From: Gammaproteobacteria bacterium
GTDB taxonomy: Bacteria > Pseudomonadota > Gammaproteobacteria > Steroidobacterales > Woeseiaceae
DNA: 64,000 bases
Direction of reading: 5' to 3'
Assembly (NCBI GenBank): GCA_029863305.1
Contig: JAOTVR010000003.1
Coordinates: 1-64,000 of the forward strand
Under the pieces are notes generated by a model that worked only from the letters and a program-made list of their open reading frames with translations, had not been told where the DNA came from and made no database searches. The translations under genes were made by a program, and so were the position numbers. Positions 273-7,672 of this stretch are shown here, one piece after another. The first letter of the stretch is position 1. Each line of letters begins with the position of its first letter.

Positions 273-2702
273 TTACTCGTAACGCAGTGCCAATACCGGG
301 TTCGCTCGGGCAATGCGGAATGCGTGCCCCGCCACAGTCGTCCAGGCGAGCAGAACGGCGATCGCACCAGCCACAAGCAGAATAATTATCGGTGATTCGA
401 TCCGGTCCGCGAAAAAATCGAGGTAGAGATTAGACGCGAAGAACGCGGCGGGTAACGCGAGAGCCAGAGCCCACATCACTGGTTTCGAGAATTGCCAGAC
501 CAGCAGTTTTGCGATCTGTGTCGAGCTCGCTCCGAGTACCTTGCGCACACCGATTTCCTTGGTTCGCTGCGCGGCCATGAACGCCGCAAGGCCGAACAAA
601 CCTATGAGTGCCAGGGACAGCGCGACGAAAGCGAATCCGGCCAGCGCAATGTTCATGTACTTCAGAATCTTGTACACATCATCGAAAACTTCGTCGAGAA
701 ATCGTCCCTGCATAGGGTACTCGGGTATCACGCGCTTCCACACTTGCTCGATCTCGTCGACCGTATCGATGATATTTCCGTGCGTAATTCTGACTGAACC
801 CATGCGGAACGTCTCGGGCTGGTAGGTGTACATCCACGCCTTTTCCGCATTGAATAGCCCGACGATGTTCTGGGTTGGCACGACACCAACGATTACCATT
901 TCGCGAAGCGTATCTTCCTCGTCGAGGTCGTAGAAACGCTGGTTCAGTGCATCTTCCGGTCGGTCTATCCCGAGCCTCACGAGAGCCAGCTCATTGACCA
1001 GGACGTTGATGACCTCCGATTCCTCGGAGACGTACTCGTCGTTCGCGATATCCCGGCTCAGATTTCGGCCAGCCAGCAGCGGAATATCGTAAGTCTCGAG
1101 AAACTCGGGCGACATGCGTAGCAGCTGAATTTGGAATTTGCCCGCCTCGTCACCAGGGTTGCCAGCAACATTCGTCGTAGAGTTGGTTTGCTCATAAGGT
1201 ACTTGTGAGGAATACGCCACGCTGTCAACATTCGGTAAGGCTTCCAGTTCGTGCCGAAGCGTGTCCAGCTTCTCACTGATACCGTCGGTTTCGAGGCGGC
1301 CAAGACCGTATATCTCGGACCGGGGGAATTCGTAGCTACTCTCTTTTACCTTTTCGTTCTGCATGTAGACGATCGCCACAATCGCGAGCATGAACGCAGA
1401 GATGGCGAATTGCGCGCCGATCATGAAGGAACGGACCGTCGATCCCTTTTTGCCCTTGCGGGCCACTTCGCGCAATGCGTCAATCGGACTTGCCCTGGTT
1501 ATCAGCCAGGCGGGATACAACCCGGCGCAAAAGCCAACAAGCGCTGTGGTGGCGATCAGCCACGGCAATGTCCGCAGGTAATCCAGCGTCATGACCTTGC
1601 CTGCCGCATTATTGAACAGAGGAATGACAAGCTCGAGTGCCGCGACCGCAACCAGCATCGCGATCCCCGAAATAACCAGGCTCTCGATGAGAAATTGACT
1701 CAGGAGCTGTCTTTGGCCGGCACCCATCGTCTTGCGCATGCCAACTTCGCGACTTCTGCCAAGCGACTGCGCAGTCGCGAGATTCGTGTAATTAACGCAG
1801 GCGACAATAAGCACCAGAAAACTCAGGATGCCAATAACAGCAATTACAGGCATTCCAATCGTATCCCAGATAGCAACATTGGCGTGTTGCAGCGAGCTAA
1901 TCCAAAAAGCGGAAATGACTTCCCTCTTCTCCTCCGGCACCAGGCGCTCGTAAATTCCGTCCGCCTGCGCCTGCAGCCAGGCAGCGTCGAACTCGTCCGG
2001 CAGCAGCACATAGGTCATATTGCCCATCGACCAATTGTTCCACTCGCCGGCTTCATCGAAATCGCGTAGCCGGCTCAATGACTTGATCGGGCCGATTACA
2101 TCCATGGGTACGTCCATGACCGGCAAGGAGTTGAAGTGCGAATTCTGCGGCACGTCTTCAATGACCGCCGTGACGTGAAAGTCATGCTCATTATTCAGCG
2201 TGATGACCTCACCGATAACATCGGTGCCACCAAAGTACTTGATTGCCGCGGCTTCAGTAATGATCACACCCGAAGGATCGTCCAGCGCCGTCTCGTCGCC
2301 GTGGACATAGCTGAAATCGAAAATTTGCAGCAGATCCGGATCTGCAAATCGGATGGTCTGGTAGAAGCTGTCTGTTCCCATCGTGAGCAGGTATTCGAAA
2401 GCTATTGTCCTTGCTACCGCCTCCACGGCCGACAACTCCGACTTGAATATCGGGCCGACTGCCGTAAACGTCGTATTCATCTTTTCGATGCCGACATCCA
2501 GCTCTGGCGCCGCGTACGCACCGATGATGTACGTTCTGTCGCTCTTCTCGAAGAACACATCGTGGCTCTGCTCGTACTTGATAAGCAGCCCACCGAAAAC
2601 ATAAATCGTCATGCCTATAGCAAGACCGGCAATATTGATGAATGCGAACAGCTTGTTTTTCCGGAGATTTCGGACCGCGATTTTTACGTTGTTCCAAAAC
2701 AT
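273..2702 (-). CDS. ABC transporter permease, FtsX/MacB type with duplicated permease modules
   Basis: 809 aa; N-terminal 'NVKIAVRNLRKNKLFAFINIAGLAIGM', two FtsX-like blocks ('REVGMRKTMGAGQRQLLSQFLIES' and 'KEIGVRKVLGASSTQIAKLLVWQF'). Confidence 0.9.
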   Translation of the reverse strand: MFWNNVKIAVRNLRKNKLFAFINIAGLAIGMTIYVFGGLLIKYEQSHDVFFEKSDRTYIIGAYAAPELDVGIEKMNTTFTAVGPIFKSELSAVEAVARTIAFEYLLTMGTDSFYQTIRFADPDLLQIFDFSYVHGDETALDDPSGVIITEAAAIKYFGGTDVIGEVITLNNEHDFHVTAVIEDVPQNSHFNSLPVMDVPMDVIGPIKSLSRLRDFDEAGEWNNWSMGNMTYVLLPDEFDAAWLQAQADGIYERLVPEEKREVISAFWISSLQHANVAIWDTIGMPVIAVIGILSFLVLIVACVNYTNLATAQSLGRSREVGMRKTMGAGQRQLLSQFLIESLVISGIAMLVAVAALELVIPLFNNAAGKVMTLDYLRTLPWLIATTALVGFCAGLYPAWLITRASPIDALREVARKGKKGSTVRSFMIGAQFAISAFMLAIVAIVYMQNEKVKESSYEFPRSEIYGLGRLETDGISEKLDTLRHELEALPNVDSVAYSSQVPYEQTNSTTNVAGNPGDEAGKFQIQLLRMSPEFLETYDIPLLAGRNLSRDIANDEYVSEESEVINVLVNELALVRLGIDRPEDALNQRFYDLDEEDTLREMVIVGVVPTQNIVGLFNAEKAWMYTYQPETFRMGSVRITHGNIIDTVDEIEQVWKRVIPEYPMQGRFLDEVFDDVYKILKYMNIALAGFAFVALSLALIGLFGLAAFMAAQRTKEIGVRKVLGASSTQIAKLLVWQFSKPVMWALALALPAAFFASNLYLDFFADRIESPIIILLVAGAIAVLLAWTTVAGHAFRIARANPVLALRYE

Positions 2703-2735: not shown

Positions 2736-3440
2736 TTACGCAGCGCGTCTGTTGTCGGTAACGACGTGGCCGTCAAACAGGTTTACTGTGCGCCGCGCAT
2801 AATCCGAATGAGCAGCGGAATGCGTCACCATGACGATGGTCGTTCCTTCAGCGTTCAGTGAACGCAGCATTTCCATGACCTCCTGACCATGCGCTGAATC
2901 GAGGTTACCCGTCGGTTCGTCAGCCAGGATCAGCGGCTGGTTGCCGACCACCGCTCTCGCAACGGCGACACGCTGCTGTTGGCCACCTGATAATTGTCCG
3001 GGCATATGCCTGGCGCGATGCGCGATACCCATGCGATCCATCGCTCCGGCCACGCGCTTCCTGCGCTCGGCTGATGGCATATCGTGATACAAGAGCGCCA
3101 GCTCGATATTTTCGGCAACATTGAGTTCATCAATCAGATTGAAGCTTTGAAAGATGAAACCGATGTTCTTCTTGCGTATCGCGCTGCGCTGCGCTTCGGA
3201 ATATTTCGCAACGTTCTCGTCGAAGAAGAAGTAGTCGCCGTCAGTCGGGTTATCGAGCAACCCGGCAATGTTGAGCAATGTCGATTTGCCGCAACCCGAC
3301 GGGCCCATGACCGCGACAAAGTCACCCTGATCGATTTCGACGTTCACGCCATTGAGTGCGACCGTCTCTACCTCGTCCGTCCGGTATACCTTAAATAGAT
3401 TGTGCAATCTGAGCATTCTGGAACCCCCAATCTCAATCAA
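2736..3440 (-). CDS. ABC transporter ATP-binding protein (MacB/LolD type)
   Basis: Walker [10 protein letters not shown], signature [14 protein letters not shown], Walker [13 protein letters not shown]. Confidence 0.95.
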
Positions 3441-4746
3441 GCGTTAATCGATCCATGCCGACGTAGTTCGTGTACGGCGATGTAATAACTTGCTCACCAG
3501 GCTCGAGCCCGTCGAGAACTTCAATAAAATCCGTATTGCGGCGCCCGAGACGGACCGGGCGCTTCACGGCCTCGGTGCCATCTGCGGAGACAACAAACAA
3601 CCAGTTGCCGCCGGTCTCCTGATAGAACGAACCATTCGGTATCAGTAAGGCATCAGAGTTATCACCGAGCGTCAATTTGAGTTGTAGCGTCTGTCCGCGC
3701 CGCAAACCGACGGGTTCCTCATCAAAGACCATGTCGACCTCGAACTGGCCGTTGTTCACCTGTGGATAAATCTTTGACACCCGCAGGTCGTAGCTTCGGC
3801 TGCCGTGATCGGCCGTCGCGAACTGCTGCAGATCGACCCGGCCGAGATAGAATTCGTCGATCTGAACGTTCAGCTTGTATCCGTCCGGGTCGTCGATTTG
3901 ACCAAGACGGCCACCACGGACGATCGACTGACCGACCTCGATATTGAATCCGGACAGCTTGCCGTGTACTGGCGCCCGAACATTGAGGTCATCGAGATTC
4001 TTGCGTGCAAATCCGAGGCTGGCCTGCAATTGAGTCCCTGCTTCGCGTAACTGGCTCAACTGCTGCGTCTGCATGCGAGCGTCTGTTGCCTGGCTTTCCA
4101 CTGTTACTTCGCGCCGCCTGGTGTAGTAAGTCAGCTCGTCCTGTAACTCATCAACCGTGGACTGGGGTACGAGCTCCTTGGCGGCCAGTTCGCGTTGCCT
4201 CGCGATACTGCGATTCAGCCGAACCATCTGATAATCGATTTCGACCAGATTGCGTTTGTGCGACAGGCGATTCTGCTCGAGCTGCAGCTCAATCGTGCGC
4301 ATATTGTTGAGCTGCTCGGTCACGGCTGCCTCACGCCCCAGAACTTCAAGTTGCAGATTGGTATTCGACAACAGAGCGATCGGATCGCCGGCCTCGACGA
4401 GCGTGCCGTCCTCGACCAGCACCTGCTCGACACGGCCACCTTCGATGGCGTCGAGATATACGGTGCTGCGTGGCACGAGACGGCCACGTAGCGGAATGAA
4501 ATCCTCAAAGGTGCCAACGGTCACCGGAGAGACGAATACCCGCTGTGCGTTGACACTGAGGCTGCGGCCGCCAAGCAGCATTCCGACCAGCCACCAGGTA
4601 AACAGGATCGCGATGCCTCCGGCCAGGCCATATCCGACCATGCGGCTGCGCGACGTCTTCTTCTCGACAATCCGATCCATGCTCTGGCCGGAAATGTTGA
4701 CGCTCGGGTTTTCGTGATCGTCTGCGATTCGGCTGATGTTGCTCAC
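3433..4746 (-). CDS. Periplasmic adaptor (HlyD/MacA-type membrane fusion protein)
   Basis: N-terminal TM, 'VEQVLVEDGTLVEAGDPIALLSN' lipoyl-like half motif, coiled coil, 'LNVRAPVHGKLSGFNIEVGQSI'. Confidence 0.9.
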   Translation of the reverse strand: MSNISRIADDHENPSVNISGQSMDRIVEKKTSRSRMVGYGLAGGIAILFTWWLVGMLLGGRSLSVNAQRVFVSPVTVGTFEDFIPLRGRLVPRSTVYLDAIEGGRVEQVLVEDGTLVEAGDPIALLSNTNLQLEVLGREAAVTEQLNNMRTIELQLEQNRLSHKRNLVEIDYQMVRLNRSIARQRELAAKELVPQSTVDELQDELTYYTRRREVTVESQATDARMQTQQLSQLREAGTQLQASLGFARKNLDDLNVRAPVHGKLSGFNIEVGQSIVRGGRLGQIDDPDGYKLNVQIDEFYLGRVDLQQFATADHGSRSYDLRVSKIYPQVNNGQFEVDMVFDEEPVGLRRGQTLQLKLTLGDNSDALLIPNGSFYQETGGNWLFVVSADGTEAVKRPVRLGRRNTDFIEVLDGLEPGEQVITSPYTNYVGMDRLTLD

Positions 4747-4796
4747 GCGGCTCTCGTTCTCGGTATCGCCGGACAGGCGATCTCACCAGTATGAAT

Positions 4797-4813
4797 AGCA
4801 AAGAGCGTGCCAA
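4797..4813 (-). promoter_or_regulatory. Sigma-54 (-24/-12) promoter for the adaptor/ABC operon
   Basis: Minus strand reads TTGGCACGCTCTTTGCT, matching TGGCAC-N5-TTGC(A/T) with the GG-to-GC spacing of the consensus; predicted TSS ~4787, about 40 nt upstream of the start at 4746. Confidence 0.8.
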
Positions 4814-4896
4814 GTTGAGAAGTGTTTGATTTTTAAGAAAAAGTAAAGGAATCGAATAGAATGGACGTGGCAAAGCCAGGAAAATCCATCCAATAC

Positions 4897-4912
4897 TGTA
4901 CGAAACCGGACA
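4897..4912. promoter_or_regulatory. Palindromic operator, copy 1 (TGTNCG-N4-CGNACA)
   Basis: TGTACGAAACCGGACA; second copy of the same pattern 21 bp away. Confidence 0.65.
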
Positions 4913-4917
4913 CCTAC

Positions 4918-4933
4918 TGTACGATTTCGAACA
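4918..4933. promoter_or_regulatory. Palindromic operator, copy 2 (TGTNCG-N4-CGNACA)
   Basis: TGTACGATTTCGAACA, within CTGTACGATTTCGAACAG; 21 bp centre to centre from copy 1. Confidence 0.65.
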
Positions 4934-4950
4934 GTCGTGAGAGCCAACAT

Positions 4951-6330
4951 TTGACTGATTCGGCCAAAATCCTGATCGTCGACGATGACGAGGACATCCT
5001 GACAGCGGGACGTTTGCTGCTGCGACGCAGCTTCGGTGACGTGATCACCTGCCGTCGGCCGGAAGAAGTCCCTGATCTTCTAGAGCAGCATGCTTTTGAT
5101 GCCGTAATGCTCGACATGAACTTCGGGCCGGGCGAATCGTCTGGCAAACAAGGACTTGAATGGCTCGAACGTATTCTGCTGATCGACCCGCAAATGGTCG
5201 TCGTCATGATCACGGCTCACGGCAGCGTGGACACCGTGGTCGAGGCGATGAAACGTGGGGCGACCGACTTCGTGGCCAAGCCCTGGCAAAACGAAAAGGT
5301 CGTTGCGACGATTTCCGCCGCGGTCGAGTTGCATCGCAGCCGCATCGAAACCCACTCCTTGCGCAGGGCAAATCGCGCGCTGCGAGAAGCCACGTCCGGA
5401 GCTGACACGGCGATCGTCGGTACATCAGTACCAATGCGCGAGGTTCTTTCCATCGTCGAGCGCACTGCCCCAACCGACGCAAACATCCTCATTCTTGGTG
5501 AGAATGGTACGGGCAAGGAATTGATTGCCCGCGAAGTGCATCGACGATCGTCGAGATCGCATCAGGTGTTTCTTACTGTCGACATGGGATCAATCAGCGA
5601 ATCTCTGTTCGAATCGGAGCTGTTCGGGCATCGAAAAGGTGCCTTTACCGGAGCGGATGACGACCGCCTCGGACGATTTCAGGCCGCCGATGGTGGCACC
5701 TTGTTTCTTGATGAGATCGGCAATCTGCAGCCGCATCTGCAAATCAAACTCCTGCGGGCTCTCGAACAGCGTCGGGTGACCCCGGTTGGCTCCGACAAGG
5801 CGCAGGAATTCAATGTACGCGTGATTGCGGCGACTAACGTACCTGCTGAAGCGCTTCGGGATGAGCGACGGTTTCGTCCCGACCTGCTGTTTCGATTGAA
5901 CACGGTGGAGATTACCGTGCCGCCGCTGCGGGAACGGCGCGACGATATCCTGCCGATTGCCAGTCACTACAGCCGGATCTACTCTCGAAAATACGATAAG
6001 GCCGCCAGGTCTTTTTCCTCTGCTGCTGAAAAAGCGATGCTCGAATACGATTGGCCGGGCAACGTACGCGCGTTGCGGCATTCGGTTGAGAGAGCCGTCA
6101 TACTCGCTGCCGGCCCTGTGCTCGAGGTCGACGATCTACAGCTCAGACCAGGCGTGACAGTGGCCGAATCGTCGGCTCCCGAGCCGGTTGCGCTGAGTCT
6201 CGAACAGGTGGAAAGGCAGACAATAGAATCCGTATTGCAAAAGCACGGCTTCAATATCTCACACGCTGCAAAAGAACTCGGCCTGACCAGGGCGTCTCTG
6301 TACCGGCGTATGGAAAAGCATGGTCTATAG
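4951..6330 (+). CDS. Sigma-54-dependent response regulator (REC-AAA+-Fis HTH), NtrC/AtoC type; likely TTG start
   Basis: REC 'ILIVDDDEDIL...MLDMNF', AAA+ 'GENGTGKELIAREVH', GAFTGA loop 'HRKGAFTGADDDRLGRF', C-terminal Fis HTH. Upstream ATG at 4861 would place operators inside the ORF; TTG at 4951 begins just before the REC domain. Confidence 0.9.
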   Translation: MTDSAKILIVDDDEDILTAGRLLLRRSFGDVITCRRPEEVPDLLEQHAFDAVMLDMNFGPGESSGKQGLEWLERILLIDPQMVVVMITAHGSVDTVVEAMKRGATDFVAKPWQNEKVVATISAAVELHRSRIETHSLRRANRALREATSGADTAIVGTSVPMREVLSIVERTAPTDANILILGENGTGKELIAREVHRRSSRSHQVFLTVDMGSISESLFESELFGHRKGAFTGADDDRLGRFQAADGGTLFLDEIGNLQPHLQIKLLRALEQRRVTPVGSDKAQEFNVRVIAATNVPAEALRDERRFRPDLLFRLNTVEITVPPLRERRDDILPIASHYSRIYSRKYDKAARSFSSAAEKAMLEYDWPGNVRALRHSVERAVILAAGPVLEVDDLQLRPGVTVAESSAPEPVALSLEQVERQTIESVLQKHGFNISHAAKELGLTRASLYRRMEKHGL

Positions 6331-7672
6331 ACGCTTCGCTGTCGTCCTGGCAATTCGACTCGTCGTCGTCGGGCTTGCCATTGCAGCGGTTGTTTGGCTG
6401 TTACTGCAGCCTGGCCATCACGGCGCAACCGTCCTTGCTGTCGGCATCCTGGTCATATTTGCAACGGAACTCTGGTGGTTCATCAGCAGAACGAACCGGG
6501 AGGTTGTACGCTTTCTGGATGCCGCGCGTTACGCGGACTACTCACAGCGATTCAGCCTGGAGGGTATTGGTGCCGGCTTCGGCGAGCTCGGCGAAACGTT
6601 CACGGACATCCTGGACAGGATGTACGAGCAGCGCGCTGACCAGGAAGTTGAGCTGCGCCAATTGCGCGCCCTCATCGACCACATTCCGGTCCCTCTTCTG
6701 ACGGTCCACACCGACAAGTCGATCACACTGCAGAACAACGCCTCAAGACGCCTGTTCGGCGCGTCTCACATTACACGGCTAAGTGACCTCCGGCAGTTTG
6801 GCAGCGGCTTTCATGACGCGGTCGCGGAGGCTGTGCCTGGCAACAGGGAACTCGTGACGTTCTCCGTGGATGACGTCGAGTATCGGTTGACGCTTGCGAC
6901 GACAGAAAATATTGTGGCCGGCGATAGTAGTCGACTGGTTTCGCTGCAGGATATACAGAGCGAGCTTGACATCACGCAGGCACAGGCATGGCAAGACCTC
7001 GTGCGCGTGCTGACTCACGAAATCATGAATTCGATCACTCCGGTGACATCGCTGGCGAAGACTGCGGCCCACGTCATTGATGACGTAATCGACAAGGCCG
7101 GGCCCGACTCTTCAATGTCTGCTGATCTGGACGACTTGCGCGATGCTGTGTACACCGTCGCACGTCGATCCGACAGCCTGATGCAATTCGTGCACAGCTA
7201 TCGGCAGCTGACCCGGCTCGCGCCGCCCGAGAAAAAACGTGTCAACCTTGCGGACTTGTTCGCGTCTGTTACCCGGCTTGCCGAAGCAGAGTGGCCCGGC
7301 AGTGAGTCGATTCTGTCAAAGCAGGTGGAGCCGGCAGAGCTCGATGTTTACGCAGACAGGGACCTGTTAGAGCCGGTTTTGCTGAATCTGCTGCGCAACG
7401 CCTTGCAGGCTACGGCAGAACAGGAACCAGCGAAAATAGACCTTCGCGGCCATCTGAATCGGCGCGGCAACGTCGTTATCGACCTATGCGACAACGGTCC
7501 GGGTGTACCGGAAGACATTGCGAGGCAGATCTTCGTGCCTTTCTTTACAACGAAGGACCAGGGGTCCGGCGTTGGTCTGGCCCTTGCGCGACAAGTCATG
7601 ACCGCGCACGGAGGTTTCATACGGGTTGGTCAGAATGAGGGTGGGGGCGCCAGATTCACCCTCACGTTTTAA
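6320..7672 (+). CDS. Sensor histidine kinase, NtrY-like
   Basis: Two N-terminal TM segments, PAS-like region, H-box 'RVLTHEIMNSITPVTSLAKT', N box 'LLRNALQAT', G boxes 'DNGPGVPEDIARQIFVPFFTTKDQGSGVGLAL'. Confidence 0.93.
   Translation: MVYRRFAVVLAIRLVVVGLAIAAVVWLLLQPGHHGATVLAVGILVIFATELWWFISRTNREVVRFLDAARYADYSQRFSLEGIGAGFGELGETFTDILDRMYEQRADQEVELRQLRALIDHIPVPLLTVHTDKSITLQNNASRRLFGASHITRLSDLRQFGSGFHDAVAEAVPGNRELVTFSVDDVEYRLTLATTENIVAGDSSRLVSLQDIQSELDITQAQAWQDLVRVLTHEIMNSITPVTSLAKTAAHVIDDVIDKAGPDSSMSADLDDLRDAVYTVARRSDSLMQFVHSYRQLTRLAPPEKKRVNLADLFASVTRLAEAEWPGSESILSKQVEPAELDVYADRDLLEPVLLNLLRNALQATAEQEPAKIDLRGHLNRRGNVVIDLCDNGPGVPEDIARQIFVPFFTTKDQGSGVGLALARQVMTAHGGFIRVGQNEGGGARFTLTF

Follow-up and report, generated by a model that had tools for sequence, protein, structure and literature searches.

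The window (the whole 64,000-nucleotide stretch of DNA analyzed here) contains, near its start, an exporter operon and a divergently encoded regulator and kinase pair, with a putative promoter, bend site, and tandem palindromes in the spacer between them. The features of this locus are as follows:

273..2702, minus strand: FtsX/MacB_PCD duplicated permease, ADOP-like (below model cut-off)
2736..3440, minus strand: ABC ATPase (nearest named model DarD, below cut-off)
3433..4746, minus strand: periplasmic adaptor (HlyD_3) with a GTG start (nearest named model DarC, below cut-off)
4798..4812, minus strand: predicted sigma-54 promoter core (-24/-12), TGGCACGCTCTTTGC, 0 mismatches to TGGCACN5TTGC
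4819..4831, minus strand: IHF-like site, AATCAAACACTTC, 1 mismatch to WATCAANNNNTTR, 6 bp upstream of the -24 element
4897-4912, no strand: promoter-proximal putative enhancer dyad 1, TGTACGAAACCGGACA, 0 mismatches to TGTNCG-N4-CGNACA, kept in orthologues
4918-4933, no strand: promoter-distal putative enhancer dyad 2, TGTACGATTTCGAACA, 0 mismatches to TGTNCG-N4-CGNACA
4951..6330, plus strand: NtrC-type response regulator (receiver, AAA+ with GAFTGA, Fis-type HTH) with a TTG start, the presumed activator
6320..7672, plus strand: sensor histidine kinase (PAS_8 partial, HATPase_c), the presumed partner, adjoining the regulator in relatives

The exporter proteins are akin to the DarBCD and MacAB-TolC systems in that the adaptor, ATPase, and permease best match the DarC, DarD, and ADOP/DarB models, respectively, and differ from DarBCD in that all three fall under the curated cut-offs of these models (DarC, 232.6 of 450 bits; DarD, 261.8 of 375 bits; DarB, 106.8 of 700 bits). 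The permease scored 273.4 bits over its whole length against the ADOP model TIGR03434 (cut-off 622.3) and, on this profile comparison, is a relative of the ADOP duplicated permeases and not a member by that model.

The regulator displayed Response_reg, Sigma54_activat, and HTH_8 Pfam domains, its residues D11, D12, D55, T88, and K110 and the Walker residues were invariant in our alignment (A1), and the GAFTGA loop ascribed to it by an earlier note on this DNA was found in its sequence. It scored below every curated cut-off of the PrsR, ZraR, AtoC, and NtrC equivalog models, with its best equivalog score being 361.5 bits to PEP_resp_reg (cut-off 502.6). The TTG start at 4951 is supported because the regulators of relatives begin just after dyad 2; an in-frame ATG at 4861, which would render the dyads coding, was not seen to be shared by relatives. 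The kinase H-box was read by eye as HEIMNSITP.

On the minus strand, TTGGCACGCTCTTTGCT (4813-4797) contains the core TGGCACN5TTGC at 4812-4798, which is the sole match with 0 mismatches in the 64-kb window; the fit to the -24/-12 consensus proposed earlier was thus exact in both sequence and coordinates. The genome carries rpoN, and the adaptor-ATPase-permease operon is most likely the target driven by this core. Assuming that transcription starts ~12 bp past the -12 GC, the predicted +1 falls at ~4786, which places the dyads at ~-111 to -147, in agreement with the ~110-146 bp upstream of the predicted start first suggested for them.

The two 16-mers previously described as TGTNCG-N4-CGNACA palindromes with centers 21 bp apart are indeed present, with 0 mismatches and exact coordinates. 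A single dyad alone is no more frequent than chance, given that exact single dyads occurred 8 times per strand across the whole genome (6 for the reversed control pattern) and that dyads with up to 1 mismatch occurred 4 times in the 64-kb window (3.3 expected). The tandem pair, in the genome-wide scan that had been proposed for it, was found once in the 4.25-Mb genome and is unique there even at 3 mismatches, with the control at 0.

Loss of the dyads from orthologous spacers had been named as a finding that would speak against their role. We searched the regulator against sixty related genomes and read the upstream region of each close match in the correct orientation; together with one further relative and the window itself, this gave 21 orthologous spacers. 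As this test starts from the regulator, it is unaffected by any choice of loci through the dyad pattern. All 21 spacers carry both the tandem dyads, spaced by 20-22 bp with a combined 0-3 mismatches, and a sigma-54 site (0-1 mismatch) directed away from the regulator. Of 4,200 dinucleotide shuffles of the spacers, none came down to the ≤3 mismatches shown by every one of the 21 orthologues, a statistic inflated, like our other tests, by shared ancestry. The spacers of 11 non-orthologous sigma-54 regulators lacked the pair, with 7-10 mismatches. In a class-wide search, the regulator matched in 5 of 229 genomes at E ≤ 1e-130; the three most distant class-wide matches (L156-L158) had no dyads and were set aside as other families. 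We did note that, in the genus of the window, the four-base core of dyad 2 (ATTT/ATTC) is nearly invariant and that of dyad 1 is variable, which might reflect a second role for dyad 2, such as autoregulation.

A conserved IHF-like site between the promoter and the dyads was overlooked in the earlier note. A match to the IHF consensus WATCAANNNNTTR with up to 1 mismatch was present in 18 of the 21 orthologous spacers (1.5 expected from shuffles) and, among the matches listed from a wider collection of genomes (below), in 10/12 other Proteobacteria (1.6 expected) and 18/32 remaining loci (4.6 expected). Most orthologues have it starting 4-6 bp from the -24 box; in another clade, it lies 16-17 bp from the box in the opposite orientation. 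The genes for both IHF subunits (ihfA and ihfB, alpha and beta) are found in the same genome. Sigma-54 systems typically have an IHF site between enhancer and promoter; a bend site there, for IHF or otherwise, is frequent but not universal in such enhancer modules.

Also overlooked was that the distance between enhancer and promoter is quantized. The promoter and the proximal dyad are separated by 59.5-61.5 bp in 18 orthologous spacers, 72.5 bp in two, and 92.5 bp in the window, which is an outlier in length yet lies ≤0.5 bp from the same helical phase, three turns out. Measured from the center of the pair, the distances to the sigma-54 site fall at ~72, ~82, and ~93 bp, with that of the window (103 bp) ~three turns beyond 72. 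This natural series of 72, 82, 93, and 103 bp offers a ready test set for enhancer phase.

A scan of a genome collection, restricted to the 21-bp spacing and with 22 fixed bases, recovered the pair in at least 118 stretches, where an estimate from the fixed bases expects well under one by chance. Among the matches listed, the sources were Bacteroidota (most), Proteobacteria, Acidobacteriota, Aminicenantes, Zixibacteria, and others, as taken from record titles, and a few of these bins may be contaminated. One stretch (L106) carries the pair and a permease on a contig labelled Woesearchaeota archaeon, which is probably of bacterial origin, the bin being mixed. The loci, having been picked by the dyad pattern, are no random sample, and the counts that follow apply to the matches listed. 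A sigma-54 site with up to 1 mismatch was present within 400 bp at 59 of 121 places, against a share of 4% in control windows taken from these loci; at about half of the 121 places listed, no site at this threshold was found, which counts against the module reading given below. At the 75 places with a promoter of up to 2 mismatches, the first downstream gene encoded an adaptor (26), a permease (20), an ATPase (6), or another product (23), such that 52/75 lead into an exporter gene of these three kinds; by eye, the remaining genes included several TolC-like channels, with others encoding an ECF sigma factor or surface proteins. An orthologous response regulator often lies beside the pair as its recurrent neighbor. 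The distances from pair center to promoter again cluster, mostly in the two groups 71-74 and 81-84 bp (n = 50; Rayleigh R = 0.71 for a 10.5-bp period); with mainly these two groups to fit, the period is broad, and values of 9.5-11.5 bp do almost equally well. When the gap between dyads was searched freely from 0 to 30 bp, 52 of the 53 distinct places gave a value of 4-7 bp, as counted by hand in 19 dyad-bearing genomes that had been chosen for at least one gap of 5 bp.

We consider it highly probable (roughly 90%) that this locus is a sigma-54 enhancer module in which the regulator, bound to the dyads and helped by IHF bending, would activate a MacB/DarBCD-like exporter operon. The elements, their conservation, their spacing rules, and their linkage to exporter genes are read directly in the sequences, and from them we infer binding by the regulator, its phosphorylation, bending by IHF, activation, the signal, and the substrate. 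In such a module, the histidine kinase (6320-7672) would sense an envelope or export-related signal and phosphorylate the regulator (4951-6330), dimers of which could then occupy the two dyads (4897-4933) on one helix face, separated by two turns, and nucleate the AAA+ ring. IHF at 4819-4831 would bend the short spacer, allowing the ring to meet the RNA polymerase-sigma54 waiting at 4798-4812, and ATP-driven remodelling would start the adaptor-ATPase-permease operon. The signal-responsive control of efflux through regulator, dyads, and sigma-54 that had been put forward for this locus is supported by the 21/21 orthologous spacers and the presence of rpoN and both IHF subunits, and "enhancer" is a better term for the palindromes than the "operator" used at that time.

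The dyads lie directly upstream of the regulator start codon, a position typical of an operator, and could instead be bound by another transcription factor (e.g., a dimer of the TetR or LexA kind) acting as repressor or activator of either the operon or the regulator gene, with the sigma-54 site served by an activator bound elsewhere. We regard this as unlikely, given that the response regulator is the recurrent neighbor of the pair, that a close orthologue of it (E ≤ 1e-189, the next best hit in each being clearly weaker) occurs in 15/15 dyad-bearing genomes, and that the quantized distance to the sigma-54 site and the intervening IHF site are features of an enhancer and not of an operator. 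The same position bears on autoregulation: with 17 bp separating the end of the dyads from the start codon in the window, the regulator probably influences transcription of its own gene as well. That this should be the main purpose of the dyads, through an overlapping promoter of the regulator gene and with sigma-54 activation of the exporter secondary, is very doubtful; while the dyads also end close to the start in relatives, the dyad 2 core is unusually conserved, and a -10-like TACAGT occurs just before the start codon in L021, L022, and L025, many Bacteroidota pairs precede a permease or channel gene, have no adjoining regulator gene, and still keep the sigma-54 register. That the palindromes and the consensus hexamer pair look as they do by chance, as the chance frequency of single dyads might suggest, has a negligible probability; footprinting refutes it, as the pair is kept in all orthologues, and the reversed control was 0 in all genomes.

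With regard to regulon size, the 15 dyad-bearing genomes each contain from 1 to ~11 pairs (the reversed control always 0) and one close regulator orthologue, which points to a sigma-54 circuit of a single operon here and a regulon acting in trans in some Bacteroidota. The description of the circuit as "self-contained" accordingly holds for its own genome, with its single target pair, and fails for the family. The largest numbers, ~10-11 pairs each, were seen in a Tannerella MAG (G290; L067 and other contigs) and Parapedobacter tibetensis (G288; L047). Some of the Tannerella copies are nearly identical in sequence and were possibly spread by duplication.

The GAFTGA loop, although present in the window protein, is likewise no constant of the family. 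Among the matches listed, the sigma-54 contact loop reads GAFTGA in 19 of 58 dyad-associated regulators and GAFTDA, GAFTNA, GSFTDA, or GSFTNA in the other 39; the variants occur in the regulators of L010-L015, L017-L019, and L035-L151, many of whose promoters are clear sigma-54 sites. In NorR, the corresponding changes G266D and G266N leave activation intact and free the protein from repression by its regulatory domain (PMC2941729). A Desulfovibrio EBP also carries GAFTDA (PMC4641369). For the working of this contact loop, the natural GAFTDA loops make a ready test set. Dyad-linked regulators also share an HTH end of the type LGLTRAxLYRRMEKHGL, which reads differently in neighbors without dyads.

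NtrC/NifA/NorR-type sigma-54 enhancer modules are known to combine tandem upstream sites with IHF, and the present arrangement is alike in its -24/-12 promoter, tandem upstream dyads, IHF-like site between them, and AAA+ activator, the last carrying a receiver and Fis-type HTH here. It differs in the dyad itself (TGTNCGN4CGNACA), the short phase-locked enhancer distance, and the MacB-like exporter target, and in the GAFTDA/GAFTNA loop of most relatives of the window regulator. NorR targets possess three enhancer sites (PMC2941729), and a third dyad-like site between pair and promoter in the spacers of L045, L112, L120, L122, and L138 suggests a similar arrangement of three tandem sites there.

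The BceRS regulator of Firmicutes is of the OmpR type and is not known to use sigma-54, whereas the present locus appears to use sigma-54 enhancer logic in Gram-negatives. BceRS-BceAB is alike in pairing a MacB-superfamily transporter genetically with its own two-component system (PMC5985334). MacAB of E. coli and Salmonella is controlled by PhoPQ, and a review of the MacB family lists PhoPQ and regulation of the BceRS kind, with sigma factors, RpoN, and NtrC not mentioned (PMC5985334). A 2025 study predicted sigma-54 promoters at COG0577 FtsX-like permeases in Gammaproteobacteria and Bacteroidia, calling this the first evidence (PMC12316311); the target class is the same, and the accessible part of that study gives no activator, dyads, IHF site, or spacing rule. 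Judging from that part, the link between sigma-54 and these exporters has so far come from promoter statistics only, and we found no published activator or enhancer code for sigma-54 at MacB/FtsX exporters in the open-access literature. A predicted activator, its binding code, and its spacing rules are now proposed for sigma-54 promoters at MacB/FtsX-like exporters, which also gives a starting point for working out what many of the duplicated permeases in Bacteroidota do.

Taken across phyla, it seems reasonably probable that one regulator subfamily and one enhancer code (the TGTNCGN4CGNACA pair at two turns, an IHF site, and a phase-locked sigma-54 promoter) form a widely shared envelope-defense regulon for MacB/ADOP-type exporters in several phyla, being local in Proteobacteria, extending to ~ten operons in some Bacteroidota, and using a naturally altered GAFTDA/NA loop in most members. 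By eye, the pair also precedes an ECF sigma factor gene (L144, near 2926), a serine-peptidase-like gene (L041, near 5102), and the gene of a GGS-repeat surface-like protein (L093, near 6558), a hint that the regulon might cover envelope stress more widely. Counting against the module reading, some relatives of the regulator lie next to similar exporters where a clear pair is missing: Hymenobacter and Rahnella plasmids have no pair, and Pseudoalteromonas has a single dyad. On the Rahnella aquatilis plasmid PRA1 (L183, 1497-12402), the related adaptor-ATPase-permease-regulator-kinase set, from which the pair is absent, adjoins P450, KSIII, and phosphopantetheinyl transferase genes and possibly provides self-resistance to a natural product.
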